Assembly: GCA_032622095.1 (NCBI GenBank)
Contig: CP136064.1
Coordinates: 5,697,512-5,761,511, forward strand
Reading direction: 5' to 3'
Source: Siphonodentalium dalli
Taxonomy: Eukaryota; Mollusca; Scaphopoda; Gadilida; Siphonodentaliidae
Length of the DNA: 64,000 nucleotides
A program made the position numbers and the translations under genes. Within the stretch, counting starts at the first letter, position 1, and every line of letters starts with the position of its first letter. The notes under the pieces were generated by a model that did no database searches, was not told where the DNA came from, and saw only the letters and a program-made list of their open reading frames with translations. Of the stretch, positions 1 through 48,560 are shown piece after piece.

Positions 1-3000
1 ACAGTGGCTGAATGGGAGAATCTATTGGTGAGAGACGGGTTAACAGTGAATGAATGGGAGAATCTATTGGTGAGAGACGGGTTAACAGTGGCTGAATGGG
101 AGAATGTATTGGTGAGAGACGGGTTAACAGTGGCTGAATGGGAGAATCTATTGGTGAGAGACGGGTTAACAGCGGCTGAATGGGAGAATCTATTGGTGAG
201 AGACGGGTTAACAGAGGCTGAATGGGAGAATCTATTGGTGAGAGACAGGTTAACAGTGGCTGAATGGGAGAATCTATTGGTGAGAGACGGGTTAACAGAG
301 GCTGAATGGGAGAATCTATTGGTGAGAGACGGGTTAACAGTGAATGAATGGGAGAATCTATTGGTGAGAGACGGGTTAACAGTGAATGAATGGGAGAATG
401 TATTGGTGAGAGACGGGTTAACAGTGGCTGAATGGGAGAATCTATTGGTGAGAGACGGGTTAACAGTGGCTGAATGGGAGAATCTATTGGTGAGAGACGG
501 GTTAACAGTGAATGAATGGGAGAATCTAATGAGGCGAGAGACGGGTTAACAGTGGCTGAATGGGAGAATCTATTGGTGAGAGACGGGTTAACAGTGGCTG
601 AATGGGAGAATCTATTGATGAGAGACGGGTTAACAGTGAATGAATGGGAGAATCTATTGGTGAGAGACGTGTTAACAGTGGCTGAATGGGAGAATCTATT
701 GGTGAGAGACGTGTTAACAGTGGCTGAATGGGAGAATCTATTGGTGAGAGACGGGTTAACAGTGGCTGAATGGGAGAATCTATTGGTGAGAGACGGGTTA
801 ACAGTGAATGAATGTGAGAATCTATTGGTGAGAGACGGGTTAACAGTGTCTGAATGGGAGAATCTATTGGTGAGAGACGGGTTAACAGTGGCTGAATGGG
901 AGAATCTATTGGTGAGAGACGGGTTAACAGTGGCTGAATGGGAGAATCTATTGGTGAGAGACGGGTTAACAGTGAATGAATGTGAGAATCTATTGGTGAG
1001 AGACGGGTTAACCGTGAATGAATGGGAGAATCTATTGGTGAGAGACGGGTTAACAGTGGCTGAATGGGAGAATCTATTGGTGAGAGACGGGTTAACAGTG
1101 AATGAATGGGAGAATCTATTGGTGAGAGACGGGTTAACAGTGGCTGAATGGGAGAATCTATTGGTGAGAGACGGGTTAACAGTGGCTGAATGGGAGAATC
1201 TATTGGTGAGTGACGGGTTAACAGTGGCTGAATGGGAGAATCTATTGGTGAGAGACGGGTTAACAGTGGCTGAATGGGAGAATCTATTGGTGAGAGACGG
1301 GTTAACAGTGGCTGAATGGGAGAATCTATTGGTGAGAGACGGGTTAACAGTGGCTGAATGGGAGAATCTATTGGTGAGAGACGGGTTAACAGTGGCTGAA
1401 TGGGAGAATCTATTGGTGAGAGACGGGTTAACAGTGGCTGAATGGGAGAATCTATTGGTGAGAGACGGGTTAACAGTGGCTGAATGGGAGAATCTATTGG
1501 TGAGAGACGGGTTAACAATGGCTGAATGGGAGAATCTATTGGTGAGAGACGGGTTAACAGTGGCTGAATGGGAGAATCTATTGGTGAGAGACGGGTTAAC
1601 AGTGGCTGAATGGGAGAATCTATTGGTGAGAGACGGGTTAACAATGGCTGAATGGGAGAATCTATTGGTGAGAGACGGGTTAACAGTGGCTGAATGAGAG
1701 AATCTATTGGTGAGAGACGGGTTAACAGTGGCTGAATGAGAGAATCTATTGGTGAGTGACGGGTTAACAGTGGCTGAATGGGAGAATCTATTGGTGAGAG
1801 ACGGGTTAACAGTGGCTGAATGGGAGAATCTATTGGTGAGAGACGAGTTAACAGTGGCTGAATGGGAGAATCTATTGGTGAGAGACGGGTTAACAGTGGC
1901 TGAATGGGAGAATCTATTGATGAGAGACGGGTTAACAGTGGCTGAATGGGAGAATCTATTGGTGAGAGACGGGTTAACAGTGGCTGAATGGGAGAATCTA
2001 TTGGTGAGAGACGGGGTTAACAGAGGCTGAATGGGAGAATCTATTGGTGAGAGACGGGTTAACAGTGGCTGAATGGGAGAATCTATTGGTGAGAGACGGG
2101 TTAACAGTGGCTGAATGGGAGAATCTATTGGTGAGAGACGGGTTAACAGTGGCTGAATGGGAGAATCTATTGATGAGAGACGGGTTAACAGTGGCTGAAT
2201 GGGAGAATCTATTGAGGCGAGACGGGTTAACAGTGAATGAATGGGAGAATCTATTGGTGAGAGACGGGTTAACAGTGGCTGAATGGGAGAATCTATTGGT
2301 GAGAGACGGGTTAACAGTGGCTGAATGAGAGAATCTATTGGTGAGAGACGGGTTAACAGTGGCTGAATGGGAGAATCCATTGGTGAGAGACGGGTTAACA
2401 GTGGCTGAATGGGAGAATCTATTGGTGAGAGACGGGTTAACAGTGGCTGAATGGGAGAATCTATTGGTGAGAGACGGGTTAACAGTGGCTGAATGGGAGA
2501 ATCTATTGAGGTGAGAGACGGGTTAACAGTGAATGAATGGGAGAATCTATTGGTGAGAGACGGGTTAACAGTGGCTGAATGGGAGAATCTATTGGTGAGA
2601 GACGGGTTAACAGTGGCTGAATGGGAGAATCTATTGGTGAGAGACGGGTTAACAGTGGCTGAATGGGAGAATCTATTGGTGAGAGACGGGTTAACAGTGG
2701 CTGAATGAGAGAATCTATTGGTGAGAGACGGGTTAACAGTGGCTGAATGGGAGAATCTATTGGTGAGAGACGGGTTAACAGTGGCTGAATGGGAGAATCT
2801 ATTGGTGAGAGACGGGTTAACAGTGGCTGAATGGGAGAATCTATTGGTGAGAGACGGGTTAACAGTGGCTGAATGGGAGAATCTATTGAGGTGAGAGACG
2901 GGTTAACAGTGAATGAATGGGAGAATCTATTGGTGAGAGACGGGTTAACAGTGGCTGAATGGGAGAATCTATTGGTGAGAGACGGGTTAACAGTGGCTGA

Positions 3001-6000
3001 ATGGGAGAATCTATTGGTGAGAGACGGGTTAACAGTGGCTGAATGGGAGAATCTATTGGTGAGAGACGGGTTAACAGTGGCTGAATGGGAGAATCTATTG
3101 GTGAGAGACGGGTTAACAGTGGCTGAATGGGAGAATCTATTGGTGAGAGACGGGTTAACAGTGGCTGAATGGGAGAATCTATTGGTGAGAGACGGGTTAA
3201 CAGTGGCTGAATGGGAGAATCTATTGGTGAGAGACGGGTTAACAGTGAATGAATGGGAGAATCTATTGGTGAGAGACGGGTTAACAGTGAATTAATGGGA
3301 GAATCTATTGGTGAGAGACGGGTTAACAGTGGCTGAATGGGAGAATCTATTGGTGAGAGATGGGTTAACGGTGGCTGAATGGGAGAATCTATTGAGGTGA
3401 GAGCGGGTTAACAGTGGCTGAATGGGTGAATCTATTGGTGAGAGACGGGTTAACAGTGGCTGAATGGGAGAATCTATTGGTGAGAGACGGGTTAACAGTG
3501 AATGAATGGGAGAATCTATTGGTGAGAGACGGGTTAACAGTGGCTGAATGGGTGAATCTATTGGTGAGAGACGGGTTAACAGTGGCTGAATGGGAGAATC
3601 TATTGGTGAGAGACGGGTTAACAGTGGCTGAATGGGAGAATCTATTGAGGTGAGAGACGGGTTAACAGTGGCTGAATGGGAGAATCTATTGGTGAGAGAC
3701 GGGTTAACAGTGGCTGAATGGGAGAATCTATTGGTGAGAGACGGGTTAACAGTGGCTGAATGGGAGAATCTATTGGTGAGAGACGGGTTAACAGTGGCTG
3801 AATGGGAGAATCTATTGGTGAGAGACGGGTTAACAGTGGCTGAATGGGAGAATCTATTGGTGAGAGACGGGTTAACAGTGAATGAATGGGAGAATCTATT
3901 GGTGAGAGACGGGTTAACAGTGGCTGAATGGGAGAATCTATTGGTGAGAGACGGGTTAACAGTGGCTGAATGGGAGAATCTATTGGTGAGAGACGGGTTA
4001 ACAGTGGCTGAATGGGAGAATCTATTGGTGAGAGACGGGTTAACAGTGGCTGAATGGGAGAATCTATTGGTGAGAGACGGGTTAACAGTGGCTGAATGGG
4101 AGAATCTATTGGTGAGAGACGGGTTAACAGTGGCTGAATGGGAGAATCTATTGGTGAGAGACGGGTTAACAGTGAATGAATGGGAGAATCTATTGGTGAG
4201 AGACGGGTTAACAGTGGCTGAATGAGAGAATCTATTGGTGAGAGACGGGTTAACAGTGGCTGAATGGGAGAATCTATTGGTGAGAGACGGGTTAACAGTG
4301 GCTGAATGGGAGAATCTATTGGTGAGAGACGGGTTAACAGTGGCTGAATGGGAGAATCTATTGGTGAGAGACGGGTTAACAGTGACTGAATGGGAGAATC
4401 TATTGGTGAGAGACGGGTTAACAGTGGCTGAATGGGAGAATCTATTGGTGAGAGACGGGTTAACAGTGGCTGAATGGGAGAATCTATTGAGGCGAGACGG
4501 GTTAACAGTGGCTGAATGGGAGAATCTATTGGTGAGAGACGGGTTAACAGTGAATGAATGGGAGAATATATTGATGAGAGACGGGTTAACAGTGGCTGAA
4601 TGGGAGAATCTATTGGTGAGAGACGGGTTAACAGTGGCTGAATGGGAGAATCTATTGGTGAGAGACGGGTTAACAGTGGCTGAATGGGAGAATCTATTGG
4701 TGAGAGACGGGTTAACAGTGGCTGAATGGGAGAATCTATTGGTGAGAGACGGGTTAACAGTGGCTGAATGGGAGAATCTATTGGTGAGAGACGGGTTAAC
4801 AGTGGCTGAATGGGAGAATCTATTGGTGAGAGACGGGTTAACAGTGGCTGAATGGGAGAATCTATTGGTGAGAGACGGGTTAACAGTGAATGAATGGGAG
4901 AATCTATTGGTGAGAGACGGGTTAACAGTGGCTGAATGGGAGAATCTATTGGTGAGAGACGGGCTAACAGTGGCTGAATGGGAGAATCTATTGGTGAGAG
5001 ACGGGTTAACAGTGGCTGAATGGGAGAATCTATTGAGGCGAGACGGGTTAACAGTGGCTGAATGGGAGAATCTATTGGTGAGAGACGGGTTAACAGTGAA
5101 TGAATGGGAGAATATATTGATGAGAGACGGGTTAACAGTGGCTGAATGGGAGAATCTATTGGTGAGAGACGGGTTAACAGTGGCTGAATGGGAGAATCTA
5201 TTGGTGAGAGACGGGTTAACAGTGGCTGAATGGGAGAATCTATTGGTGAGAGACGGGTTAACAGTGGCTGAATGGGAGAATCTATTGGTGAGAGACGGGT
5301 TAACAGTGGCTGAATGGGAGAATCTATTGGTGAGAGACGGGTTAACAGTGAATGAATGGGAGAATCTATTGGTGAGAGACGGGTTAACAGTGGCTGAATG
5401 GGAGAATCTATTGGTGAGAGACGGGCTAACAGTGGCTGAATGGGAGAATGTATTGATGAGAGACGGGTTAACAGTGGCTGAATGGGAGAATCTATTGGTG
5501 AGAGACGGGTTAACAGTGGCTGAATGGGAGAATCTATTGGTGAGAGACGAGTTAACAGTGGCTGAATGGGAGAATCTATTGGTGAGAGACGGGTTAACAG
5601 TGGCTGAATGGGAGAATCTATTGGTGAGAGACAGGTTAACAGTGGCTGAATGGGAGAATCTATTGGTGAGAGACGGGTTAACAGTGGCTGAATGGGAGAA
5701 TCTATTGGTGAGAGACGGGTTAACAGTGAATGAATGGGAGAATCTATTGGAGAGTGACGGGTTAACAGTGGCTGAATGGGAGAATCTATTGGTGAGAGAC
5801 GGGTTAACAGTGGCTGAATGGGAGAATCTATTGGTGAGAGACGGGTTAACAGTGGCTGAATGGGAGAATCTATTGGTGAGAGACGGGTTAACAGTGGCTG
5901 AATGGGAGAATCTATTGGTGAGAGACGGGTTAACAGTGGCTGAATGGGAGAATCTATTGGTGAGAGACGGGTTAACAGTGGCTGAATGGGAGAATCTATT

Positions 6001-9000
6001 GGTGAGAGACGGGTTAACAGTGGCTGAATGGGAGAATCTATTAGTGAGAGACGTGTTAACAGTGGCTGAATGGGAGAATCTATTGGTGAGAGACGGGCTA
6101 ACAATGGCTGAATGGGAGAATCTATTGGTGAGAGACGGGTTAACAGTGGCTGAATGGGAGAATCTATTGGTGAGAGACGGGTTAACAGTGAATGAATGGG
6201 AGAATCTATTGGAGAGTGACGGGTTAACAGTGGCTGAATGGGAGAATCTATTGGTGAGAGACGGGTTAACAGTGAATGAATGGGAGAATCTATTGGTGAG
6301 AGACGGGTTAACAGTGGCTGAATGGGAGAATCTATTGGTGAGAGACGGGTTAACAGTGGCTGAATGGGAGAATCTATTGGTGAGAGACGGGTTAACAGTG
6401 GCTGAATGGGAGAATCTATTGGTGAGAGACGGGTTAACAGTGGCTGAATGGGAGAATCTATTGGTGAGAGACGAGTTAACAGTGGCTGAATGGGAGAATC
6501 TATTGGTGAGAGACGGGTTAACAGTGGCTGAATGGGAGAATCTATTGGTGAGAGACGGGTTAACAGTGGCTGAATGGGAGAATCTATTGGTGAGAGACGG
6601 GTTAACAGTGGCTGAATGGGAGAATCTATTGGTGAGAGACGGGTTAACAGTGGCTGAATGGGAGAATCTATTGGTGAGAGACGGGTTAACAGTGAATGAA
6701 TGGGAGAATCTATTGGTGAGAGACAGGTTAACAGTGGCTGAATGGGAGAATCTATTGGTGAGAGACGGGTTAACAGTGGCTGAATGGGAGAATCTATTGG
6801 TGAGAGACGGGTTAACAGTGAATGAATGGGAGAATCTATTGGTGAGAGACAGGTTAACAGTGAATGAATGGGAGAATCTATTGAGGTGAGAGACGGGTTA
6901 ACAGTGGCTGAATGGGAGAATCTATTGGTGAGAGACGGGTTAACAGTGGCTGAATGGGAGAATCTATTGGTGAGAGACGGGCTAACAGTGGCTGAATGGG
7001 AGAATCTATTGGTGAGAGACGGGTTAACAGTGAATGAATGGGAGAATCTATTGGTGAGAGACGGGTTAACAGTGGCTGAATGGGAGAATCTATTGAGGTG
7101 AGAGACGGGTTAACAGTGAATGAATGGGAGAATCTATTGGTGAGAGACGGGTTAACAGTGAATGAATGGGAGAATCTATTGGTGAGAGACGGGTTAACAG
7201 TGGCTGAATGGGAGAATCTATTGAGGTGAGAGACGGGTTAACAGTGAATGAATGGGAGAATCTATTGGTGAGAGACGGGCTAACAGTGGCTGAATGGGAG
7301 AATCTATTGGTGAGAGACGGGTTAACAGTGAATGAATGGGAGAATCTATTGGTGAGAGACGGGTTAACAGTGGCTGAATGGAAGAATCTATTGGTGAGAG
7401 ACGGGTTAACAGTGGCTGAATGGGAGAATCTATTGGTGAGAGACGGGTTAACAGTGACTGAATGGGAGAATCTATAGGTGAGAGACGGGTTAACAGTGGC
7501 TAAATGGGAGAATCTATTGGTGAGAGACGGGTTAACAGTGGCTGAATGGGAGAATCTATTGGTGAGAGACGGGTTAACAGTGGCTGAATGGGAGAATCTA
7601 TTGGTGAGAGACGGGTTAACAGTGGCTGAATGGAAGAATCTATTGGTGAGAGACGGGTTAACAGTGGCTGAATGGGAGAATCTATTGGTGAGAGACGGGT
7701 TAACAGTGAATGAATGGGAGAATCTATTGGTGAGAGACGGGTTAACAGTGAATGAATGGGAGAATCTATTGGTGAGAGACGGGTTAACAGTGGCTGAATG
7801 GGAGAATCTATTGGTGAGAGACGGGTTAACAGTGGCTGAATGGGAGAATCTATTGGTGAGAGACGGGTTAACAGTGAATGAATGGGAGAATCTATTGGTG
7901 AGTGACGGGTTAACAGTGAATGAATGGGAGAATCTATTGGTGAGAGACGGGTTAACAGTGGCTGAATGGGAGAATCTATTGGTGAGAGACGGGTTAACAG
8001 TGGCTGAATGGGAGAATCTATTGGTGAGAGACGGGTTAACAGTGGCTGAATGGGAGAATCTATTGGTGAGAGACGGGTTAACAGTGGCTGAATGGGAGAA
8101 TCTATTGGTGAGAGACGGGTTAACAGTGGCTGAATGGGAGAATCTATTGGTGAGATACGGGTTAACAGTGGCTGAATGGGAGAATCTATTGGTGAGAGAC
8201 GGGTTAACAGTGGCTGAATGGGAGAATCTATTGGTGAGAGACGGGTTAACAGTGGCTGAATGGGAGAATCTATTGGTGAGAGACGGGTTAACAGTGACTG
8301 AATGGGAGAATCTATTGGTGAGAGACGGGTTAACAGTGGCTGAATGGGAGAATCTATTGGTGAGAGACAGGTTAACAGTGAATGAATGGGAGAATCTATT
8401 GAGGCGAGAGCGGGTTAACAGTGGCTGAATGGGAGAATCTATTGGTGAGAGACGGGTTAACAGTGAATGAATGGGAGAATCTATTGAGGTGAGAGACGGG
8501 TTAACAGTGGCCGAATGGGAGAATCTATTGGTGAGAGCGGGTTAACAGTGGCTGAATGGGAGAATCTATTGGTGAGTGACGGGTTAACAGTGGCCGAATG
8601 GGAGAATCTATTGGTGAGAGCGGGTTAACAGTGGCTGAATGGGAGAATCTATTGGTGAGAGCGGGTTAACAGTGGCTGAATGGGAGAATCTATTGGTGAG
8701 AGACGGGTTAACAGTGGCTGAATGGGAGAATCTATTGGTGAGAGACGGGTTAACAGTGGCTGAATGGGAGAATCTATTGGTGAGAGACGGGTTAACAGTG
8801 GCTGAATGGGAGAATCTATTGGTGAGAGACGGGTTAACAGTGGCTGAATGGGAGAATCTATTGGTGAGAGACGGGTTAACAGTGGCTGAATGGGAGAATC
8901 TATTGGTGAGAGACGGGTTAACAGTGGCTGAATGGGAGAATCTATTGGTGAGAGATGGGTTAACAGTGGCTGAATGGGAGAATCTATTGGTGAGAGACGG

Positions 9001-12000
9001 GTTAACAGTGGCTGAATGGGAGAATCTATTGGTGAGAGACGGGTTAACAGTGGCTGAATGGGAGAATCTATTGGTGAGAGACGGGTTAACAGTGAATGAA
9101 TGGGAGAATCTATTGGTGAGAGACGGGTTAACAGTGGCTGAATGGGAGAATCTATTGGTGAGAGACGGGTTAACAGTGGCTGAATGGGAGAATCTATTGG
9201 TGAGAGACGGGTTAACAGTGGCTGAATGGGAGAATCTATTGGTGAGAGACGGGTTAACAGTGGCTGAATGGGAGAATCTATTGGTGAGAGACGGGTTAAC
9301 AGTGGCTGAATGGGAGAATCTATTGGTGAGAGACGGGTTAACAGTGGCTGAATGGGAGAATCTATTGGTGAGAGACGGGTTAACAGTGACTGAATGAGAG
9401 AATCTATTGAGGTGAGAGACGGGTTAACAGTGGCTGAATGGGAGAATCTATTGGTGAGAGACGGGTTAACAGTGGCTGAATGGGAGAATCTATTGATGAG
9501 AGACGGGTTAACAGTGGCTGAATGGGAGAATCTATTGGTGAGAGACGGGTTAACAGTGGCTGAATGGGAGAATCTATTGGTGAGAGACGGGTTAACAGTG
9601 GCTGAATGGGAGAATCTATTGGTGAGAGACGGGTTAACAGTGGCTGAATGGGAGAATGTATTGGTTAGAGACGGGTTAACAGTGGCTGAATGGGAGAATG
9701 TATTGGTGAGAGACGGGTTAACAGTGGCTGAATGGGAGAATGTATTGGTGAGAGACGGGTTAACAGTGGCTGAATGGGAGAATCTATTGGTGAGAGACGG
9801 GTTAACAGTGGCTGAATGGGAGAATCTATTGGTGAGAGACGGGTTAACAGTGACTGAATGAGAGAATCTATTGAGGTGAGAGACGGGTTAACAGTGGCTG
9901 AATGGGAGAATCTATTGGTGAGAGACGGGTTAACAGTGGCTGAATGGGAGAATCTATTGATGAGAGACGGGTTAACAGTGGCTGAATGGGAGAATCTATT
10001 GGTGAGAGACGGGTTAACAGTGGCTGAATGGGAGAATCTATTGGTGAGAGACGGGTTAACAGTGGCTGAATGGGAGAATCTATTGGTGAGAGACGGGTTA
10101 ACAGTGGCTGAATGGGAGAATCTATTGGTGAGAGACGGGTTAACAGTGGCTGAATGGGAGAATGTATTGGTGAGAGACGGGTTAACAGTGGCTGAATGGG
10201 AGAATGTATTGGTGAGAGACGGGTTAACAGTGGCTGAATGGGAGAATGTATTGGTGAGAGACGGGTTAACAGTGGCTGAATGGGAGAATCTATTGGTGAG
10301 AGACGGGTTAACAGTGGCTGAATGGGAGAATCTATTGGTGAGAGACGGGTTAACAGTGGCTGAATGGGAGAATCTATTGGTGAGAGACGGGTTAACAGTG
10401 ACTGAATGGGAGAATCTATTGAGGCGAGACGGGTTAACAGTGGCTGAATGGGAGAATCTATTGGTGAGTGACGGGTTAACAGTGGCTGAATGGGAGAATC
10501 TATTGGTGAGAGACAGGTTAACAGTGGCTGAATGGGAGAATCTATTGGTGAGAGACGGGTTAACAGTGGCTGAATGGGAGAATGTATTGGTGAGAGACGG
10601 GTTAACAGTGGCTGAATGGGAGAATCTATTGGTGAGAGACGGGTTAACAGTGGCTGAATGGGAGAATCTATTGGTGAGAGACGGGTTAACAGTGGCTGAA
10701 TGGGAGAATCTATTGGTGAGAGACGGGTTAACAGTGGCTGAATGGGAGAATCTATTGAGGCGAGACGGGTTAACAGTGGCTGAATGGGAGAATCTATTGG
10801 TGAGAGACGGGTTAACAGTGACTGAATGGGAGAATCTATTGAGGCGAGACGGGTTAACAGTGGCTGAATGGGAGAATCTATTGGTGAGTGACGGGTTAAC
10901 AGTGGCTGAATGGGAGAATCTATTGGTGAGAGACAGGTTAACAGTGGCTGAATGGGAGAATCTATTGGTGAGAGACGGGTTAACAGTGGCTGAATGGGAG
11001 AATCTATTGAGGCGAGACAGGTTAACAGTGGCTGAATGGGAGAATCTATTGGTGAGAGACGGGTTAACAGTGACTGAATGGGAGAATCTATTGAGGCGAG
11101 ACGGGTTAACAGTGGCTGAATGGGAGAATCTATTGGTGAGTGACGGGTTAACAGTGGCTGAATGGGAGAATCTATTGGTGAGAGACAGGTTAACAGTGGC
11201 TGAATGGGAGAATCTATTGGTGAGAGACGGGTTAACAGTGGCTGAATGGGAGAATCTATTGGTGAGTGACGGGTTAACAGTGGCTGAATGGGAGAATCTA
11301 TTGGTGAGAGACGGGTTAACAGTGGCTGAATGGGAGAATCTATTGGTGAGAGACGGGTTAACAGTGGCTGAATGGGAGAATCTATTGGTGAGTGACGGGT
11401 TAACAGTGGCTGAATGGGAGAATCTATTGGTGAGAGACGGGTTAACAGTGGCTGAATGGGAGAATCTATTGGTGAGTGACGGGTTAACAGTGGCTGAATG
11501 GGAGAATCTATTGGTGAGAGACGGGTTAACAGTGGCTGAATGGGAGAATCTATTGGTGAGTGACGGGTTAACAGTGGCTGAATGGGAGAATCTATTGGTG
11601 AGAGACGGGTTAACAGTGGCTGAATGGGAGAATCTATTGGTGAGAGACGGGTTAACAGTGGCTGAATGGGAGAATCTATTGGTGAGTGACGGGTTAACAG
11701 TGGCTGAATGGGAGAATCTATTGGTGAGAGACGGGTTAACAGTGGCTGAATGGGAGAATCTATTGGTGAGAGACGGGTTAACAGTGGCTGAATGGGAGAA
11801 TCTATTGGTGAGTGACGGGTTAACAGTGGCTGAATGGGAGAATCTATTGGTGAGAGACGGGTTAACAGTGGCTGAATGGGAGAATCTATTGGTGAGAGAC
11901 GGGTTAACAGTGGCTGAATGGGAGAATCTATTGGTGAGAGACGGGTTAACAGTGGCTGAATGGGAGAATCTATTGGTGAGAGACGGGTTAACAGTGAATG

Positions 12001-15000
12001 AATGGGAGAATCTATTGGTGAGAGACGGGTTAACAGTGGCTGAATGGGAGAATCTATTGGTGAGAGACGGGTTAACAGTGAATGAATGGGGGAATCTATT
12101 GAGGCGAGACGGGTTAACAGTGGCTGAATGGGAGAATCTATTGGTGAGAGACGGGTTAACTGTGGCTGAATGGGAGAATCTATTGGTGAGAGACGGGTTA
12201 ACAGTGACTGAATGGGAGAATCTATAGGTGAGAGACGGGTTAACAGTGGCTGAATGGGAGAATCTATTGGTGAGAGACGGGTTAACAGTGGCTGAATGGG
12301 AGAATCTATTGGTGAGAGACGGGTTAACAGTGGCTGAATGGGAGAATCTATTGGTGAGAGACGGGTTAACAGTGGCTGAATGGGAGAATCTATTGAGGCG
12401 AGACGGGTTAACTGTGGCTGAATGGGAGAATCTATTGGTGAGAGACGGGTTAACAGTGGCTGAATGGGAGAATCTATTGGTGAGAGACGGGTTAACATGG
12501 CTGAATGATAGAATCTATTGGTGAGAGACGGGTTAACAGTGAATGAATGGGAGAATCTATTGGTGAGAGACGGGTTAACAGTGGCTGAATGGGAGAATCT
12601 ATTGGTGAGAGACGGGTTAACAGTGGCTGAATGGGAGAATCTATTGGTGAGAGACGGGTTAACAGTGGCTGAATGGGAGAATCTATTGGTGAGTGACGGG
12701 TTAACAGTGGCTGAATGGGAGAATCTATTGGTGAGAGACGGGTTAACAGTGGCTGAATGGGAGAATCTATTGGTGAGAGACGGGTTAACAGTGGCTGAAT
12801 GGGAGAATCTATTGGTGAGAGACGGGTTAACAGTGGCTGAATGGGAGAATCTATTGGTGAGTGACGGGTTAACAGTGGCTGAATGGGAGAATCTATTGGT
12901 GAGAGACGGGTTAACAGTGGCTGAATGGGAGAATCTATTGGTGAGAGACGGGTTAACAGTGAATCAATGGGAGAATCTATTGGTGAGAGACGGGTTAACA
13001 GTGAATGAATGGGGGAATCTATTGAGGCGAGACGGGTTAACAGTGGCTGAATGGGAGAATCTATTGGTGAGAGACGGGTTAACTGTGGCTGAATGGGAGA
13101 ATCTATTGGTGAGAGACGGGTTAACAGTGACTGAATGGGAGAATCTATAGGTGAGAGACGGGTTAACAGTGGCTGAATGGGAGAATCTATTGGTGAGAGA
13201 CGGGTTAACAGTGGCTGAATGGGAGAATCTATTGGTGAGAGACGGGTTAACAGTGGCTGAATGGGAGAATCTATTGGTGAGAGACGGGTTAACAGTGGCT
13301 GAATGGGAGAATCTATTGAGGCGAGACGGGTTAACTGTGGCTGAATGGGAGAATCTATTGGTGAGAGACGGGTTAACAGTGGCTGAATGGGAGAATCTAT
13401 TGGTGAGAGACGGGTTAACAGTGGCTGAATGGGAGAATCTATTGGTGAGAGACGGGTTAACAGTGACTGAATGGGAGAATCTATTGGTGAGAGACGGGTT
13501 AACAGTGAATGAATGGGAGAATCTATTGGTGAGAGACGGGTTAACAGTGGCTGAATGGGAGAATCTATTGGTGAGAGACGGGTTAACGGTGGCTGAATGG
13601 GAGAATCTATTGGTGAGAGACGGGTTAACATGGCTGAATGGGAGAATCTATTGGTGAGAGACGGGTTAACATGGCTGAATGAGAGAATCTATTGGTGAGA
13701 GACGGGTTAACAGTGAATGAATGGGAGAATCTATTGGTGAGAGACGGGTTAACAGTGGCTGAATGGGAGAATCTATTGGTGAGAGACGGGTTAACAGTGA
13801 ATGAATGGGAGAATCTATTGGTGAGAGACGGGTTAACAGTGGCTGAATGGGAGAATCTATTGAGGTGAGAGACGGGTTAATAGTGGCTGAATGGGAGAAT
13901 CTATTGGTGAGAGACGGGTTAATAGTGGCTGAATGGGAGAATCTATTGGTGAGAGACGGGTTAACATGGCTGAATGAGAGAATCTATTGAGGTGAGAGAC
14001 GGGTTAACAGTGAATGAATGGGAGAATCTATTGGTGAGAGACGGGTTAACAGTTGCTGAATGGGAGAATCTATTGGTGAGAGACGGGTTAACAGTGGCTG
14101 AATGGGAGAATCTATTGGTGAGAGACGGGTTAACAGTGGCTGAATGGGAGAATCTATTGGTGAGAGACGGGTTAACAGTGAATGAATGGGAGAATCTATT
14201 GGTGAGAGACGGGTTAACAGTGGCTGAATGGGAGAATATATTGGTGAGAGACGGGTTAACTGTGGCTGAATGGGAGAATCTATTGGTGAGAGACGGGTTA
14301 ACAGAGGCTGAATGGGAGAATGTATTGGTGAGAGACGGGTTAACAGAGGCTGAATGGGAGAATCTATTGGTGAGAGACGGGTTAACAGTGGCTGAATGGG
14401 AGAATCTATTGGTGAGAGATGGGTTAACGGTGGCTGAATGGGAGAATGTATTGGTGAGAGACGGGTTAACAGAGGCTGAATGGGAGAATCTATTGGTGAG
14501 AGACGGGTTAACAGTGGCTGAATGGGAGAATCTATTGGTGAGAGACGGGTTAACAGTGGCTGAATGGGAGAATCTATTGGTGAGAGACGGGTTAACAGTG
14601 AATGAATGGGAGAATCTATTGGTGAGAGACGGGTTAACAGTGGCTGAATGGGAGAATCTATTGGTGAGAGATGGGTTAACGGTGGCTGAATGGGAGAATG
14701 TATTGGTGAGAGACGGGTTAACAGAGGCTGAATGGGAGAATCTATTGGTGAGAGACGGGTTAACAGTGGCTGAATGGGAGAATCTATTGGTGAGAGACGG
14801 GTTAACAGTGGCTGAATGGGAGAATCTATTGGTGAGAGACGGGTTAACAGTGAATGAATGGGAGAATCTATTGGTGAGAGACGGGTTAACAGTGGCTGAA
14901 TGGGAGAATATATTGGTGAGAGACGGGTTAACTGTGGCTGAATGGGAGAATCTATTGGTGAGAGACGGGTTAACAGTGGCTGAATGGGAGAATATATTGG

Positions 15001-16452
15001 TGAGAGACGGGTTAACTGTGGCTGAATGGGAGAATCTATTGGTGAGAGACGGGTTAACAGTGGCTGAATGGGAGAATCTATTGGTGAGAGACGGGTTAAC
15101 AGTGGCTGAATGGGATAATCTATTGGTGAGAGACGGGTTAACAGTGGCTGAATGGGAGAATCTATTGGTGAGAGACAGGTTAACAGTGGCTGAATGGGAG
15201 AATCTATTGAGGTGAGAGACGGGTTAACAGTGAATGAATGGGAGAATCTATTGGTGAGAGACGGGTTAACAGTGAATGAATGGGAGAATCTATTGGTGAG
15301 AGACGGGTTAACAGTGAATGAATGGGAGAATCTATTGGTGAGAGACGGGTTAACAGTGAATGAATGGGAGAATCTATTGGTGAGAGACGGGTTAACAGTG
15401 AATGAATGGGAGAATCTATTGGTGAGAGACGGGTTAACAGTGAATGAATGGGAGAATCTATTGGTGAGAGACGGGTTAACAGTGAATGAATGGGAGAATC
15501 TATTGGTGAGAGACGGGTTAACAGTGAATGAATGGGAGAATCTATTGGTGAGAGACGGGTTAACAGTGGCTGAATGGGAGAATCTATTGGTGAGAGACGG
15601 GTTAACAGTGGCTGAATGGGAGAATCTATTGGTGAGAGACGGGTTAACAGTGAATGAATGGGAGAATCTATTGGTGAGTGACGGGTTAACAGTGAATGAA
15701 TGGGAGAATCTATTGGTGAGAGACGTGTTAACAGTGGCTGAATGGGAGAATCTATTGGTGAGAGACGGGTTAACAGTGGCTGAATGGGAGAATCTATTGG
15801 TGAGAGACGGGTTAACAGTGGCTGAATGGGAGAATCTATTGGTGAGAGACGGGTTAACAGTGAATGAATGGGAGAATCTATTGGTGAGAGACGGGTTAAC
15901 AGTGGCTGAATGGGAGAATCTATTGGTGAGAGACGGGTTAACAGTGAATGAATGGGAGAATCTATTGGTGAGTGACGGGTTAACAGTGAATGAATGGGAG
16001 AATCTATTGGTGAGAGACGTGTTAACAGTGGCTGAATGGGAGAATCTATTGGTGAGAGACGGGTTAACAGTGGCTGAATGGGAGAATCTATTGGTGAGAG
16101 ACGGGTTAACAGTGGCTGAATGGGAGAATCTATTGGTGAGAGACGGGTTAACAGTGAATGAATGGGAGAATCTATTGGTGAGAGACGGGTTAACAGTGGC
16201 TGAATGGGAGAATCTATTGGTGAGTGACGGGTTAACAGTGGCTGAATGGGAGAATCTATTGGTGAGTGACGGGTTAACAGTGGCTGAATGGGAGAATCTA
16301 TTGAGGCGAGAGCGGGTTAACAGTGGCTGAATGGGAGAATCTATTGGTGAGAGACGGGTTAACAGTGGCTGAATGGGAGAATCTATTGGTGAGAGACGGG
16401 TTAACAGTGGCTGAATGGGAGAATCTATCGAGGCGAGAGCGGGTTAACAGTG
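1..16452. repeat. 42-bp minisatellite array, about 390 units
   Basis: The unit reads GGGTTAACAGTGGCTGAATG followed by GGAGAATCTATTGGTGAGAGAC, 42 bp in all, so every unit carries a GTTAAC. The array runs off the left edge and stops abruptly at about 16452, where unrelated sequence starts. The commonest variant replaces GTGGCTGAATG with GTGAATGAATG; others change CTATTGGTG to CTATTGATG or CTATTGAGGCG. Because 42 is a multiple of 3 and the unit lacks stops in one forward and one reverse frame, very long spurious reading frames arise (14-residue units LTVAEWENLLVRDG forward and LTRLSPIDSPIQPL reverse). Units with +2 bp (CTATTGAGGTGAGAG, for example near 2507, 2887, 6882, 9408, 13860, 15208), units with -2 bp (GTGAGAGCGGG) and in-frame stops (TGAGAGAAT near 1696; CTATAG near 7476, 12225, 13148) show no coding constraint. 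It is probably in a 5' intron of, or upstream of, the syntaxin gene. Confidence 0.97.
9394..10300. repeat. Higher-order repeat inside the 42-bp array (464-bp block, two copies)
   Basis: A block beginning with the +2 variant unit (TGAATGAGAGAATCTATTGA) at 9394 recurs at 9858, an offset of 464 bp (eleven units plus 2 bp), with the same order of variant units, including consecutive units with GAATGTATTGG. Other blocks: 2493 and 2873 (380 bp, nine units plus 2); 4486 and 5032 (546 bp, thirteen units); 10398, 10818 and 11070 (420 and 252 bp); 12228 and 13151 (923 bp). These point to repeated multi-unit duplications by unequal exchange or replication slippage. Confidence 0.85.
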
Positions 16453-23544: not shown

Positions 23545-26432
23545 CAGGGCATTCAATCGTTTTGCCTGATTTTCCATTCTGGTTGTGACAGCCCTCATGT
23601 TGAGTCATGTGTTTGGTAATCCCCCCCCCCCCACCCAATGAGTATGATCACTGCTATTCAATCGTTTTGCCTGATTTTCCATTCTGGTTGTGACAGCCCT
23701 CATGTTGAGTCATGTGTTTGGTAATCCCCCCCCCCCCACCCAATGAGTATGATCACTGCTATTCAATCGTTTTGCCTGATTTTCCATTCTGGTTGTGACA
23801 GCCCTCATGTTGAGTCATGTGTTTGGTAATCCCCCCCCCCCCCCCCCCACCCAATGAGTATGATCACTGCTATTCAATCGTTTTGCCTGATTTTCCATTC
23901 TGGTTGTGACAGCCCTCATGTTGAGTCATGTGTTTGGTAATCCCCCCCCCCCCCCCCCCCACCAGTGTTCGCGCTGGACCGAAAAAAACTTTAGCCAAAA
24001 GTTTAGCCAAATGAAAATTTTATTAGCCAAATGAAAAAAACTTTAGCCAAATGTTTTTTGGCCAAATTAAAAAAAACTTTGGCCAAATTAAATCACCGTT
24101 TTCTGGTCGGTTCACAATTAATGACTAAAACGTAAAATCTAACAGACACAGGTAAAATACACAATAATTGAAACAATTTTGATGAACTAGAAGTATTTTT
24201 ATATATATCATTTATTACAAATTTATTAATCTTTATGTGAAAGAGTGATTTGGGGGGGGGGGGGGGGGGGGGGGGGGGGTAACCCGGGATTGTCCTTCTT
24301 AATGTAATTATTTTTTGGTTTTATATCAATATCTTTTTTTTAAATCATTAAATATTTATCCAAGGATAAATATTTAAGTGACATCTGGAAACTAATAACT
24401 TAATATTGTTACGCCATTATCAAATTACAATCTGTCATAAAAGCATGCATATTATTTTGACTGTATCGGTATTGACGACAAATAGCCACAACATATCTGT
24501 CGTGATTCACATTTGGCTGATTAAGCTATTGTCTTACACTTGGTGCTCATAAACCTCGACCGTCATAAATACAATGTCATCATATACATGCATTGTGCAG
24601 GCGCGCCGTGAGTGATCAGACAGACAATGGGCTGAATGGGGGATTAGGGGATTAAATGTAAAAATTAATAATGACCTTTTGCTGCTTCGCGCAGGGTGAC
24701 ATAATCTTTCTCCAGATTAAAACAGCCTGTTACGAACAAATTGCTTATATACCGGCGTCAATGCACTTTACAAAACATAGCTTTCTTCACATTGTCATAA
24801 TTCAACCTTTGAATGTCCGTCTTGTGAAAACTAAAGATGATTGCATATCACTTTGTGATCGCTTGGTTGGTTGATAGAGTTGTCGATCGGGGTTCCCTTT
24901 GTACGATATTTCATAAGTACGAAAATAATGAAATACATTCGTCACCTAACTTCGTCTTGAATGTCGATCTATTGAGCGCTTTTATTAATTAGCTTTCTGG
25001 CTCCATGCTTTCAGTCTCCATTTGGGTTCAAAAAAAGTTTAGCCAAAAGTTTAGCCAAATGAAATTTTTATTAGCCAAATTCGAAAATATTAGCCATTGG
25101 CTAATTTGGCTACCGACAGCGCGAACACTGCCCCCCACCCAATGAGTATGATCACTGCTATTCAATCGTTTTGCCTGATTTTCCATTCTGGTTGTGACAG
25201 CCCTCATGTTGAGTCATGTGTTTGGTAATCCCCCCCCCCCCCCCACCCAATGAGTATGATCACTGCTATTCAATCGTTTTGCCTGATTTTCCATTCTGGT
25301 TGTGACAGCCCTCATGTTGAGTCATGTGTTTGGTAATCCCCCCCCCCCCCCCCACCCAATGAGTATGATCACTGCTATTCAATCGTTTTGCCTGATTTCC
25401 ATTCTGGTTGTGACAGCCCTCATGTTGAGTCATGTGTTTGGTAATCCCCCCCCCCCCCCCCCCCCCCCCACCCAATGAGTATGATCACTGCTATTCAATC
25501 GTTTTGCCTGATTTTCCATTCTGGTTGTGACAGCCCTCATGTTGAGTCATGTGTTTGGTAATCCCCCCCCCCCCCACCCAATGAGTATGATCACTGCTAT
25601 TCAATCGTTTTGCCTGATTTTCCATTCTGGTTGTGACAGCCCTCATGTTGAGTCATGTGTTTGGTAATCCCCCCCCCCCCCCCCACCCAATGAGTATGAT
25701 CACTGCTATTCAATCGTTTTGCCTGATTTTCCATTCTGGTTGTGACAGCCCTCATGTTGAGTCATGTGTTTGGTAATCCCCCCCCCCCCCCCCCCACCCA
25801 ATGAGTATGATCACTGCTATTCAATCGTTTTGCCTGATTTTCCATTCTGGTTGTGACAGCCCTCATGTTGAGTCATGTGTTTGGTAATCCCCCCCCCCCC
25901 CACCCAATGAGTATGATCACTGCTATTCAATCGTTTTGCCTGATTTTCCATTCTGGTTGTGACAGCCCTCATGTTGAGTCATGTGTTTGGTAATCCCCCC
26001 CCCCCCACCCAATGAGTATGATCACTGCTATTCAATCGTTTTGCCTGATTTTCCATTCTGGTTGTGACAGCCCTCATGTTGAGTCATGTGTTTGGTAATC
26101 CCCCCCCCCCCCCCCCCACCCAATGAGTATGATCACTGCTATTCAATCGTTTTGCCTGATTTTCCATTCTGGTTGTGACAGCCCTCATGTTGAGTCATGT
26201 GTTTGGTAATCCCCCCCCCCCCCACCCAATGAGTATGATCACTGCTATTCAATCGTTTTGCCTGATTTTCCATTCTGGTTGTGACAGCCCTCATGTTGAG
26301 TCATGTGTTTGGTAATCCCCCCCCCCCCCCCACCCAATGAGTATGATCACTGCTATTCAATCGTTTTGCCTGATTTTCCATTCTGGTTTTGACTGCCCTC
26401 ATGTTGAGTCATGTGTTTGGTAATCCCCCCAA
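23545..26432. repeat. About 107-118 bp poly-C tandem array, split by a hAT-type element
   Basis: The unit runs from 'acccaatgagtatgatcact' through 'gttttgcctgattttccatt' and 'gagtcatgtgtttggtaatc' to a run of about 12-25 C. Four units lie left of the insertion (23545-23962) and about twelve to its right (25131-26432). The non-poly-C part is nearly identical between units; poly-C length varies most, and that may be partly sequencing error. Confidence 0.95.
23963..25130. mobile_element. hAT-type non-autonomous element, 1168 bp
   Basis: The ends CAGTGTTCGCGCTG and CAGCGCGAACACTG are exact 14-bp inverted repeats. The target duplication is a perfect CCCCCCAC (23955-23962 and 25131-25138). Sub-terminal 'ttagccaaat' motifs recur at both ends, as 'tttgccaaat' does in the 584-bp relative at 18680-19263. 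A long run of G lies at 24252-24280. The interior has no recognisable transposase; the 67-residue frame at 24671-24874 matches nothing I know. Confidence 0.92.
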
Positions 26433-26512: not shown

Positions 26513-26587
26513 AAATGAAAGGCGAGTTGGAGGAACTGATGGCAGATATTAAAAAGACAGCAAATAAAGTTAGGGGGAAACTAAAAG
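26513..26587 (+). CDS. Stx1: Syntaxin-1 exon (helix Hb region)
   Basis: This is an internal coding exon of a syntaxin-1 (Syx1A/STX1A) orthologue, the plasma-membrane SNARE for neurotransmitter release. After acceptor ttatttttgcag (AG at 26511-26512), two bases complete a split codon, then 24 codons read MKGELEELMADIKK through TANKVRGKLK, and one base (g, 26587) carries over; the donor is GTACGT. The protein aligns with rat syntaxin-1A residues 70-94 ([20 protein letters not shown]), in the second helix of the Habc domain. The phase (1) matches the start of the next exon. The intron upstream reaches at least to 16453 and probably through the minisatellite; the downstream intron is 9188 nt. I saw no earlier exon (helix Ha, DEFF motif) in the window, so it should lie to the left. 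Confidence 0.95.
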
Positions 26588-35775: not shown

Positions 35776-35849
35776 TTATTGAAAACAATATAGAACAGGA
35801 AGAACATTCTAACAAATCGTCAGCCGATCTGAGAATACGGAAAACCCAG
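35776..35849 (+). CDS. Stx1: Syntaxin-1 exon (Hb end to Hc start)
   Basis: Internal coding exon of the same syntaxin-1 gene. Acceptor 'ctcgtttacag', donor GTGAGT. With the carried-over g it encodes V IENNIEQEEHSNKSS then ADLRIRKTQ, 25 codons ending in phase 0. It aligns with rat syntaxin-1A residues 95-119 (SIEQSIEQEE.. SSADLRIRKTQ), the loop between helices Hb and Hc and the start of Hc in the regulatory Habc domain, which folds back on the SNARE motif and binds Munc18. The SSADLRIRKTQ block is nearly invariant in syntaxin-1 proteins, which argues for an intact gene. The following intron (10099 nt) ends at the first of two alternative exons, both of which start in phase 0. Confidence 0.96.
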
Positions 35850-43770: not shown

Positions 43771-44900
43771 CGTTGTATATGGTCTCGGTCTTAGGGTAAG
43801 GAGAATTTGTGTGAAGGAAAAAGATTACAAAGGCATCGCAAGTTATTGAAGACACACTCAGAAGGAGCGGATATTGTTCGTATATCATCGAATGGGAACT
43901 GTTGAAGGTAGATAATGTTGAAAGGAAAGGCATTTTGGAACTTAACCCCTTCAGTGCCAGGGGCCGATCTCATCGGCCCTAATTTACGGTCTGTAAAATC
44001 GGCCCTAAAACAATAAAAAAATAAAAAAAAACATTTTTGGTTGAATTGTTTTGGGTATACTTAAGCATGCTATAGCGAATTTTAAAAAAACTGGATAAAA
44101 CCTTAGGAGCATGTTATAACTCAAAACTATTACCAAGTATTCATAGTAATAATTTTGATGCCCATGAAAAACGTAAGATTCCCTGGCACTAAACCTACAA
44201 AATAAGTCTGTTAAAGATTATAATAAAAAATTATTAAAATTGTAAAAAATTGTAAAAAATAATAACAAATGATGAAAAATTGTTAAGCCAATGCATTCTC
44301 TTATATAAGAGAATGCATTGGCACAGGGTATATGGATTGATACAAAAATCGGACCTGGCACTGAAAAGGTTAAAGCACACAAGAAATAGAAGTTTGAGCG
44401 AGTTCCCCTCGTAGCAACATACATGTATAACGAGTCCTTACCGGATATTGGTGGAATATGTAGAAAATATATGGACATTCTATACATGTCGGAGAGAATG
44501 AAACGGGTATTCGATTCACCACCACTTGTTGCGTGTCGACATGATAGGAATCTGGCAGACATTTTGGTGCACCAAAAGACGAGCATATTGACAACTCCCC
44601 CTGTGATATTATGTACTGACACATGCAAAATGTGCACTATTGTAAATTTCGACCAAATCACAAATACATCAGCTGATACATATTTCCATGTTAAGAATAA
44701 TGTTAATTGTAAATCACGGAATTTGGTGTATGTACTCTCGTGTAAAAAGTGTGAATGTGCGGTATATGTGGGGGAGACAGCTCTCGTAGAGGATTGAAGA
44801 ACACTCCCGGGACATAAGGCTGCATCCAGATAAGCCAGTTTACCACACTCCCGGAACATAAGGCTGCATCCAGATAAGCCAGTTTACCAACATTCTATTA
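43771..44900 (+). pseudogene. Penelope-like retroelement remnant: RT thumb, linker and GIY-YIG endonuclease start
   Basis: This remnant is split by a family B MITE at 43946-44369. Before the MITE, fragments YIIEWELLKV and ERKGILEL can be read. After it, a frame from 44385 reads YNESLPDIGGICRKYMDILY, then PPLVACRHDRNLADILV, a Cys-rich linker (LCTDTCKMC), and LVYVLSCKKCECAVYVGETA. The RxRNLxDILV block and the VYV...YVGET pattern are typical of the RT C-terminus and GIY-YIG domain of Penelope-like elements. Frameshifts occur before the MITE, after it (near 44398) and after GETA, where EHSRDIRLH continues in another frame. A 46-bp tandem duplication (44806-44896) lies within the endonuclease. The copy is dead. 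Confidence 0.85.
43946..44369 (+). mobile_element. Family B MITE (B7) inside the Penelope-like remnant, 424 bp
   Basis: TTAA at 43942-43945 and 44370-44373; left CCCCTTCAGTGCCAGGGGCC, right 'cctggcactgaaaagg'. It shares the long-form interior with B3. Its hairpin is reduced to a perfect 36-nt palindrome made of the outer stem only (GCCAATGCATTCTCTTAT and its complement, 44286-44321). Confidence 0.9.
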
Positions 44901-45200: not shown

Positions 45201-45408
45201 ATTAAATGCTGAATTTCATTTATATTTGGTATGTGGATCTTTCACAACAATATCTCGATCAAGTTCGAAAATAAGTTTTGTCCGATTTCTTTTACCCTTA
45301 CGGCCCTTAGTTTGTATATTTTTTTAAAAGCAATTTTAGGAAATTTTATGTCCATTATCGCGATAACTTGTTTGTAACTGTTCTGTCTGTTCATTGGTTC
45401 CTGATTAA

Positions 45409-45801
45409 CCCTTTACCCAACAAACCGGCCAAAACCGGCCAAATAAAGCTTCAACAGCCTAAAATATCTTCGGTCTGTCTCAATAGAACCATACAAATAT
45501 GGATATCATTGGAACCGGCTCCTTGACCACATTGTGATAGTTACAGTTATGCCCTGTGCCAATGCATTTTCTTATATATGCGAGTCGACCATAGGTCGCC
45601 TCGCATATATAAGAGAATGCATTGGCCTAAAAAAATATCTTTTTTTAACACTTTTTACCATTTTTTCTTACATTCTTTAACAATTTTATAATTTTTAATG
45701 TGTTAAGCCAATGCATTCTCTTATATATGCGAGGCGACCTATGGTCGACTCGCATATATAAGAGAATGCATTGGCACAGGGCCCTTCTGTTGGGTAAAGG
45801 G
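45409..45801 (-). mobile_element. Family A MITE (A5), 393 bp
   Basis: TTAA at 45405-45408 and 45802-45805. Reverse orientation, both hairpins present. It is the last mobile element before the alternative exons; 148 bp separate it from exon A. Confidence 0.93.
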
Positions 45802-45948
45802 TTAAAAACTGGAACTTTCTAGTCATAGTAGCCTGATCCTATCAGAACTTAATTAAAACCAAATTGTTAAATATGACTCAACTTGTTTGATCCGAATATA
45901 ATATGACTGTTATTTTCTCCAACTAAACAATGTTATGTATTTTTGTAG

Positions 45949-46057
45949 TACTCGACTATATCTCGTAAATTTATCGAAGTTATGACAGAATACAATCAGC
46001 AACAAATCAATTATCGAGACGGCTGCCTAAATCGCATTAAACGGCAAATGGAGATTA
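45949..46057 (+). CDS. Stx1: Syntaxin-1 alternative exon A (helix Hc)
   Basis: First of two tandem versions of the Hc exon. Acceptor 'ttatgtatttttgtag', donor GTAAGC, 109 nt, phase 0 in and phase 1 out. It encodes [19 protein letters not shown] and then [17 protein letters not shown], aligning with rat syntaxin-1A residues 120-155. The conserved core S-RKF-EVM--YN---YR--C--RI-RQ-EI is retained, including the cysteine equivalent to rat Cys145. It departs from the canonical protein at otherwise conserved places: E-R-C-K-G becomes D-G-C-L-N (rat 143-147) and Q becomes K (150). Its polypyrimidine tract is weaker than that of exon B. The uninterrupted frame, intact splice sites and conservative changes argue for a used alternative exon, not a pseudo-exon. 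Helix Hc takes part in the closed conformation and Munc18 contact, so the swap could tune regulation. Confidence 0.93.
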
Positions 46058-47150
46058 GTAAGCAGGCATATAGATAGATCGTACAGCTTTGTCTAAGTTA
46101 TTTATCACGTAGTTTACAGTAGATGAAAACTATATCAAGCCATATTCATATTATGTTTATTACGAATAAAACAAGATTTTCAATTGGCTAATTGTATTCA
46201 CTGTGGCTCATTTACTAAAAGCGTAACGTATAAAACAAACTATTTTATTCAATTAACTAACATAATTGTAAAAACTTACTTAATAGAAGTGAGGACTTCT
46301 GTATTTCCCATTTTACTGATTGCTTTCAATGACAGAAATTTGCATCATAATAAATTTCTAGTTTCAATCACATCAGAAAAGATATATTCCTATAATCACA
46401 CATCGCTTCTTTGGGTATTTAATTATTATTATAAAATTGTAATTTCTAAAACAATTTTCCTCTGAAGAGAAATCATGATGTTATAGTTTATTGCTTATAA
46501 GATGAGAGCATTCCAGCATATTTATCAAAATGTTTGTGATTTTATTTGGATAAGATAAACTTGGATTTCTTTCGACGGCTCTTATTTTACCAGTATAATT
46601 GACTGAGAATACAAAAATTTTCCTTTACTGATATAATACCTGGTTTTGGATAAATTTTAACAAGGAGTTGATGGCATTTAATATTACTTGTATCTTACAA
46701 GAATATTACCTCAACAGATCAAAATTTACAACAGCTATGTGTTGCAGAATGTTTTTTTTATACATTTTCAGTTACATTTTGAAAATATTCCGCAGAACCT
46801 AAAAAAGATACTATGTTTGACTAAAAAGTTTGTAAAATTCCTTTCCCAATTGAATTAGTCCAGATGTTTCTGAAGCGGTGTTGACATATGGAAAGCGGTG
46901 TAGACACTTGAAAAGCAAGCTCTATCTATATGCCTCTATCCTGAGAGAGAAAAAATATTTCAGGTTAATTTATTACTTATAACAGCCACATACAGTTGAA
47001 TATATTCCAATTGAAACTTGTTTTTGTCTCTGTATTTTATTAAACTTGCTGAATTTAAATATCATTTCATAATTAATCTATTAAATTATTCCGATGTTTA
47101 ATATCTTAATTTCGCACTGTATCTTGTTTTGTTTTCTTTCTTTTTGTTAG
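46058..47150 (+). other. Short intron between the two alternative exons, mobile-element free
   Basis: 1093 nt, AT-rich, with no MITE, hairpin module or tandem array, unlike the flanking introns. It ends with a long pyrimidine tract before exon B. It could hold regulatory RNA sequences for exon choice; none was identified by eye. Confidence 0.6.
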
Positions 47151-47259
47151 CACGCCACATTATCTCGTAAATTTGTCGAAGTTATGAACGATTATAATGC
47201 CTGTCAAATTGACTACCGGGAGAGATGCAAAGGCCGAATTCAACGCCAACTGGAAATCA
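47151..47259 (+). CDS. Stx1: Syntaxin-1 alternative exon B (helix Hc, canonical version)
   Basis: Second version of the Hc exon: acceptor 'ttttctttctttttgttag' with a strong pyrimidine tract, donor GTAAGA, 109 nt, phase 0 to phase 1, exactly as exon A. It encodes [19 protein letters not shown] then [17 protein letters not shown]. It is close to the rat and fly sequence ([31 protein letters not shown]), so this is the default exon. Identity to exon A is 21 of 36 residues. The carried-over base 'a' suits the next codon (Thr156 of TGR in the canonical protein) for either exon. The next exon was not found before the right edge of the window. Confidence 0.96.
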
Positions 47260-47423
47260 GTAAGACATCTGTGTTCATTGTTGTAAACTCTTAGTCCTTT
47301 GCGATAGTGACTGACTAACTACCAGTTCTGATTTAAATCTTACTTGGGACGCTTCAGATACTGAGTCTGATGAAATTGGGTCGGGATTCCATTACTACAA
47401 GCAGGAATTACGTAATTGTCAGC
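47260..47423. other. Start of next syntaxin intron
   Basis: No features. The rest of the window to 64000 is this intron, unless an exon was missed. Confidence 0.5.
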
Positions 47424-47677
47424 CAAGCCTTGAAATAGTGTGTCTGTCATTTGCAGAATGAGGTCCCCAGAGGGTGAATTTAGTGATGCTACCCCGCATA
47501 GCAGGCTAGCAACACCAAATTCACCCTCTGGGGACCTCATTCTGCTTAGAACTCAGCAGAATGAGGTCCCCAGAGGGTGAATTTAGTGATGCTATCCCGC
47601 TATGCGGGGTAGCATCACTAAATTCACCCTCTGGGGACCTCATTCTACAAATGACAGACACACTATTTCAAGGCTTG
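47424..47677. mobile_element. Family E MITE, compact palindromic copy, 254 bp
   Basis: Ends CAAGCCTTGAAATAGTGTGT and ACACACTATTTCAAGGCTTG, flanked by ATTGTCAGC on both sides (47415-47423, 47678-47686; nine bases, one more than the usual hAT eight). Inside, two nested palindromes of GAATGAGGTCCCCAGAGGGT and its complement are separated by a short spacer. Confidence 0.9.
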
Positions 47678-47689
47678 ATTGTCAGCCAA

Positions 47690-48015
47690 TCACAATATCA
47701 TCAGTAAAGCGATGTAACCAATCAGGCGATAGTCGCATCGAATACCCAAGACAAGGGGAATTTCTTCAGCCAGCGTGATTCCAGTGAACCGCGCCCATTA
47801 GCTAAAATAGCTTAAAGAACTTTTCCGCTGCATGGCTAATTTCACACAGTATTTACAAATTCAGAGTTTCCGACATGCAATTAAACACTAGCTGAAAGGC
47901 GTATATAAAGAGTCCAGAATTGACCAATTATATTACCAGCTAACATGTCTAATAGAATTGAATTTCAACATTTAGAACCAAGCAATAAGAGGTAGATTTA
48001 ACTTTTGGATTTTGC
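47690..48015. other. Intronic sequence without recognised features
   Basis: Nothing recognised. Confidence 0.35.
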
Positions 48016-48019
48016 TTAA

Positions 48020-48405
48020 CCCTTTACCCAACAGAAGGGCCCTGTGCCAATGCATTCTCTTATATATGCGAGTCGACCATAGGTCGCCTCGCATATATAA
48101 GAGAATGCATTGGCTTAACACATTAAAAATTATAAAATTGTTAAAGAATGTAAGAAAAAATGGTAAAAAGTGTTTTAGGCCAATGCATTCTCTTATATAT
48201 GCGAGGCGACCTATGGTCGACTCGCATATATAAGAGAATGCATTGGCACAGGGTATAACTATAACCATCACAATGTGGTCAATGAGCCGGTTCCAATGAT
48301 ATCCATATTTGTATGGTTTTATTGAGACAGACCGAAGATATTTTAGGCTGTTGAAGCTTTATTTGGCCGGTTTTGGCCGTTTTGGCCAGTTTGTTGGGTA
48401 AAGGG
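48020..48405 (+). mobile_element. Family A MITE (A6), 386 bp
   Basis: TTAA at 48016-48019 and 48406-48409; both hairpins. The 3' end has a small expansion (ggccggttttggccgtttt). Confidence 0.93.
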
Positions 48406-48560
48406 TTAATAGAATAAGAAGTCATGTTTTTCTTTTGCGAAAACGAGAGTCGTTTTCAGAAAAAAAACCAAAAGGACATTATGTCAATCAAAGCTATTTT
48501 AAATAAAAATGTGGGCAGTGATGTCATACTGCAGGTGTTGTCTTTGGAAGTAATTGTGAA

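Follow-up and report, generated by a model that had tools for sequence, protein, structure and literature searches.

The window, i.e., the whole stretch of 64,000 nt that was analyzed, contains a part of a syntaxin-1 gene on the plus strand. Two upstream exons were localized with tblastn. One has a length of 75 nt (26513..26587, +), its splice sites were read and scored, and it encodes the counterpart of rat residues from about 70 to 95. It is followed by an exon of 74 nt (35776..35849, +), the splice sites of which were also scored, and which encodes rat residues 95-119 and ends in phase 0. According to tblastn, each of them is present once in the window. Further downstream lie two exons of 109 nt each, exon A (45949..46057, +) and exon B (47151..47259, +), which are candidate alternative exons for helix Hc, A being of a squid-like type and B of a rat-like, canonical type. 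The introns have lengths of 9188, 10099, and 1093 nt, the third being the one between A and B. The upstream exons can be joined to A or to B, and the reading frame is open in either case. The Habc domain (PF00804) was found with 86 residues in the window, with E values of 1.3e-18 for the A form and 1.9e-22 for the B form. The top PDB matches of the A form (upstream exons plus A) were squid s-syntaxin and syntaxin-1A. The human STX1A splice variant c.284-1 is given in an excerpt of PMC9995539, and simple arithmetic then places a human intron within codon 95, after the first base. The intron between the 75-nt and the 74-nt exon has the same position, and thus this position is conserved.

A tblastn search with rat syntaxin-1A, which could miss very short or diverged exons, revealed no exon in the window for the N-terminal region (rat residues 1 to about 70), and none for the linker, the SNARE motif, or the anchor. 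No exon was recognized in the 16741 nt from exon B to the end of the window. ARAGORN detected no tRNA in the window, and the region 16400-64000, i.e., excluding the satellite, had no Rfam match at the gathering score. The satellite (1-16452) begins at the left edge of the window and consists of about 391 copies of a 42-nt unit with 96% match. Because 42 is a multiple of three, it contains spurious long open reading frames of up to 1201 amino acids. It may be located inside a syntaxin-1 intron, as the N-terminal exon was not found in the window. A tandem array with a unit of 105-106 nt and a C-run (25131-26430, also 23551-23957) ends 82 nt before the 75-nt exon. In addition, an open frame without a Pfam match was seen at 44390-44797, the end of which we take to resemble the GIY-YIG endonuclease of a Penelope-like element.

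The first-pass annotation had described A and B as two open 109-nt exons, 1093 nt apart and both running from phase 0 to phase 1, and the coordinates and figures were exact. The same was true for the identity of 21 of 36 residues, which was recomputed. The proposal that both encode the same Hc block, i.e., rat residues 120-155, was borne out by gapless alignments to this part of the syntaxin-1A chain 9ojz_G (E 8.6e-10 for A and E 7.3e-16 for B). When A and B were compared within the window, the E value was 2.5e-12, and the remaining matches had E values of 0.35 and 0.93 (tblastn, E up to 1). No convincing copy of the Hc block other than A and B is present in the window, and a chance resemblance is excluded. 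At the nucleotide level 74 of 109 positions are identical, and the 35 differences are distributed over the codon positions with 12 at the first, 5 at the second, and 18 at the third. The values of dN and dS are 0.30 and 1.40, respectively (dN/dS about 0.21). The two copies are homologous only over the exon with its splice sites, and the flanking introns have no clear homology (best flank match E 0.014). That the homology ends at the exon borders indicates an old duplication. The two exons are thus adjacent, homologous, of equal length and phase, and each has its own splice sites, as is typical for tandem exon pairs. The blocks of A, B, rat, and squid were aligned to derive a pattern for a contig scan, and none of the 47 matches in viral_contigs and 39 matches in genome_contigs encoded a relative, as checked by tblastn.

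The splice sites were ranked over the region 16460-64000 with approximate weight matrices. The acceptor of A was 46th and that of B 4th among 2390 AGs, and the donors were 194th (A) and 229th (B) among 2710 GTs. For the upstream exons the acceptors were 7th and 9th and the donors 4th and 1st. Both A and B had been credited with good splice sites. This applies to the acceptor of B, but the ranks of the A acceptor and of both donors are only moderate. It had also been noted that the pyrimidine tract of A is weaker than that of B, and the acceptor of A also has the lower rank. The GT-AG dinucleotides are intact at A and B, and both donors lack a G at -1, but have GTAAG. As the acceptor of B is stronger, B is likely to be the default exon.

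Mutually exclusive splicing had been deduced from the length of 109 nt, and this deduction could be retained in part. When the upstream exons, A, and B are translated together, a TAA is encountered at bases 18-20 of B, and thus only use of one exon at a time would be productive. A physical bar to the joining of A and B was not found in the sequence, which has a 1093-nt intron with GT-AG sites, and therefore exclusivity would need a regulated choice of sites or the decay of bad products. The sequence is best explained by A and B being used alternatively, with only their exclusive use being productive, and we consider it quite likely that both are functional, alternatively used exons. In this model a single exon for most of helix Hc of the Habc domain would have been duplicated in tandem long ago, and both copies would have been retained as alternatives. 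The exon ending at 35849 would be spliced either to A or to B, and next to a shared exon further downstream, beyond the window. Skipping of both would shift the frame and would be unproductive. As the length of 109 nt is not divisible by three, protein would be expected from the two single-exon forms only. The region 45405-48409 was also inspected for splicing-factor motifs. It contains one TGCATG (47829), one CELF-like site, and, as raw counts, numerous YCAY and YGCY sites. The TGCATG and CELF-like sites are too few for an argument, which was therefore dropped.

Exon A resembles a squid protein. Its top match among 177,635 distinct PDB sequences was s-syntaxin (1s94, E 2.7e-12, 27 of 36 residues identical), which we take to be the squid protein. 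The top matches of B were syntaxin-1A chains (E 5.8e-16), presumably from rat, and 1s94 was ninth of 12 (E 1.3e-13). An excerpt of PMC7024357 lists UniProt O46345 as S-syntaxin of Doryteuthis pealeii, a name that agrees with the label of 1s94. Over the 36 residues, A has 27 identities with squid, 22 with rat, and 21 with B, whereas B has 31 with rat and 26 with squid, and rat and squid share 27. At five positions (120, 123, 143, 150, and 153) A is identical to squid and B to rat, the A-type residues being Y120, I123, D143, K150, and M153. The reverse pairing (A with rat, B with squid) was found at position 133, and no site unites A and B against squid and rat. In a quartet likelihood test with these four sequences (LG+G4, 36 sites) the tree joining A and squid was ahead by 9.7 log units, and the alternatives were rejected (AU p 0.022 and 0.0085). 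By reasoning, an origin of the squid differences from RNA editing was discarded, because none of Y/H, K/Q, and L/M corresponds to an A-to-I change.

In the two upstream exons 44 of 49 residues are identical to squid and 39 of 48 aligned residues to rat, which would suit, but not establish, a mollusc or a close relative of molluscs. The gene is that of an invertebrate, probably a lophotrochozoan. Differences from squid were counted at 9 of 36 sites in A and at 5 of 49 in the upstream exons, which indicates that A evolves faster. A seems to belong to an older exon type, which is also represented in squid s-syntaxin, and to have diverged from it. The known squid protein thus appears to carry an A-type Hc block, which would mean that A is expressed in a relative and that the duplication is older than that split. 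The simplest history would be a duplication before the split between this animal and squid, with the squid protein using the A exon. The duplication would be younger than this suggests if the animal were itself a cephalopod closely related to squid.

Several other explanations of the pair have to be weighed. An assembly artefact, i.e., two haplotypes or collapsed paralogues that were set side by side, would draw on the general risk of repeat-rich assemblies only. Haplotypes are expected to be nearly identical, but A and B are alike at about two thirds of the nucleotides and have unrelated flanks, and no upstream exon was found twice, so that the probability of this explanation is practically negligible. 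Exon A could also be a relic, which was formerly used, is now spliced rarely or never, and is drifting. The weaker acceptor, the faster change, and the loss of R144 and K146 would fit to a relic, while the lack of a stop, the intact splice dinucleotides, and the low dN/dS speak against it. Unconstrained copies of B were simulated in 20,000 runs at each of five distances. The frequency of stop-free copies that kept 21 or more of the 36 residues was 0.080 at distance 0.3 and 0.0011 at 0.5, and it was 0 at 0.7, 1.0, and 1.4. The absence of a stop alone had a frequency of 0.24, falling to 0.09, over distances 0.3-1.4. The open frame by itself is thus weak evidence, because 9 to 24% of unconstrained copies stay stop-free. 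The 8% of copies that keep an A-like identity at distance 0.3 leave room for a recent loss of A use, and the constraint that is seen may be mostly old. However, at distances of 0.7 and above not a single neutral copy retained such an identity. As simulated neutral copies rarely keep it, A was probably maintained by selection as a coding exon during most of its life, and we regard a relic as quite unlikely.

Alternatively, A could be mainly a poison exon, i.e., A would be joined to B, the premature stop would lead to nonsense-mediated decay and lower the level of syntaxin-1, and little A-only protein would be made. The TAA in the joined product and the apparently unhindered joining across the 1093-nt intron are in line with such a role. 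It would not require, however, that 36 Hc codons are kept, and an A-type block is present in the squid protein. Therefore, we consider it very unlikely as the main role of A, but as a side effect it is compatible with alternative use of the two exons. Lastly, the resemblance to squid could be due to convergence, in which case the duplication would be local to the lineage and A would still be an alternative exon. The comparison comprises just 36 sites, and of the five replacements shared with squid, three (I/L, D/E, M/L) are conservative. In contrast, Y120 versus H and K150 versus Q are not conservative, and the alternative trees were rejected in the quartet test, which makes convergence unlikely. 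The pair is real, probably functional, and of a known kind, a tandem exon swap in a neuronal SNARE.

The substitutions in A had been reported correctly, i.e., E-R-C-K-G is changed to D-G-C-L-N and Q150 to K, while Cys145 is kept. Both neighbors of Cys145 are altered in A (R144G and K146L), in addition to G147N and Q150K. R144 and K146 are common to rat, squid, and B and are lost in A, and G144, L146, and N147 are private to A among the four compared sequences. Tyr141 and Cys145 are retained by both exons. Exon B encodes an additional cysteine at the place of rat residue 137 (47202-47204), near the constitutive Cys145. This additional cysteine is absent from A, rat, and squid. We take Arg198 to be located in the SNARE helix. 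For closed human syntaxin, PMC9995539 describes a model in which a Trp at position 145, known from the reported disease variant Cys145Trp, collides with Tyr141 and Arg198, which indicates that this stretch of Hc adjoins these two residues. According to an excerpt of PMC5595989, Cys145 is required for clustering with Cav1.2, and a single cytosolic cysteine, Cys145, is typical of neuronal syntaxin isoforms. Cys145 is present in A and B, but a single cysteine does not apply to the B form because of Cys137, and most of the protein is encoded beyond the window. The changes around Cys145 place the exchange at a site where the closed state, Munc18 binding, or channel coupling could be tuned. The two forms would differ in the packing of Hc on the SNARE helix and in how the Cys145 stretch meets Munc18 or calcium channels, and the choice would tune the ease of syntaxin opening. 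B would be the canonical form and A a form for some neurons or stages. With regard to the closed state, such an effect is tentative.

The closest analogue, as far as the excerpt of PMC2581893 describes it, is the exon pair 5a/5b of SNAP-25 in vertebrates, which is tandem duplicated and mutually exclusive, with 5b dominating in adult mouse brain. Here as well, one coding block of a core neuronal SNARE would be exchanged. The present pair concerns another SNARE and another animal group, with the block being part of the regulatory Habc domain. There are 15 differences in 36 residues between A and B, compared with 9 in 39 between the SNAP-25 exons, and splicing has been demonstrated for SNAP-25, whereas it is predicted for A and B. 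Alternative exons inside a syntaxin-1 gene are also found in Caenorhabditis elegans, where, according to an excerpt of PMC4946901, exons 8a/8b of unc-64 are chosen neuron-specifically under regulation by UNC-75/CELF. In contrast to A and B, which would swap helix Hc, they are located at the 3' end and encode the C-terminal part and the membrane anchor. Squid s-syntaxin is similar to A in the Hc block and to the two preceding exons, but R144-C-K146 is kept as in B and rat, and the comparison is one of protein sequences alone. In the titles and abstract openings of the retrieved open-licence PMC papers, an Hc exon pair was not described for syntaxin-1; automatic annotations of mollusc genomes may list both isoforms.

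The exon pair is enclosed by two copies of a TTAA-bounded MITE of roughly 400 nt. One copy is located 143 nt upstream of A (45405..45805, +), and the second, which is inverted relative to the first, 756 nt past the end of B (48016..48409, -), and thus they form an inverted repeat. The TTAA ends suggest what we take to be a piggyBac-type element. The arms are complementary to 97% over 212 nt and to 100% over 159 nt, and the predicted duplex has -693 kcal/mol. In the pre-mRNA, the two copies would pair into a long hairpin with A and B in its loop. Elsewhere, such a location of exons promotes the formation of circular RNA, joint skipping, or editing, and the MITE pair is a possible substrate for these processes. 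The window contains at least eight near-full-length copies. Two others have identities of 99.2% (374 nt) and 98.8% (401 nt) to the upstream copy, compared with 94.0% (385 nt) for the downstream copy. An origin of the MITE pair together with the exon duplication is disfavoured, because other copies are closer to the upstream one. The copy number and the closer relatives elsewhere make chance insertion more likely, and the placement around the exons is likely due to chance. Another long hairpin element (47417-47684) with 133-nt arms, which are 93% complementary and 2 nt apart, begins 157 nt past exon B.

The synaptic interest of the pair follows from the identity of the gene and the link to squid. 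Syntaxin-1 is strongly conserved, and neurotransmitter release depends centrally on how its closed state is controlled. If Hc is naturally swapped within one gene, this would be a ready test of the role of this helix, as SNAP-25a/b is for SNAP-25. With an A-type exon that resembles squid syntaxin, the animal can probably make two forms of a synaptic protein. It is conceivable, though somewhat doubtful, that Hc exons of the A and B types already existed in the common ancestor of this animal and squid, and that the choice between them sets the exit from the Munc18-bound closed state or the coupling of the Cys145 region to calcium channels. If this were true, the classical squid syntaxin would be the A isoform, a B isoform would be expected also in squid, and the structural and physiological work on squid syntaxin would cover one of two forms.
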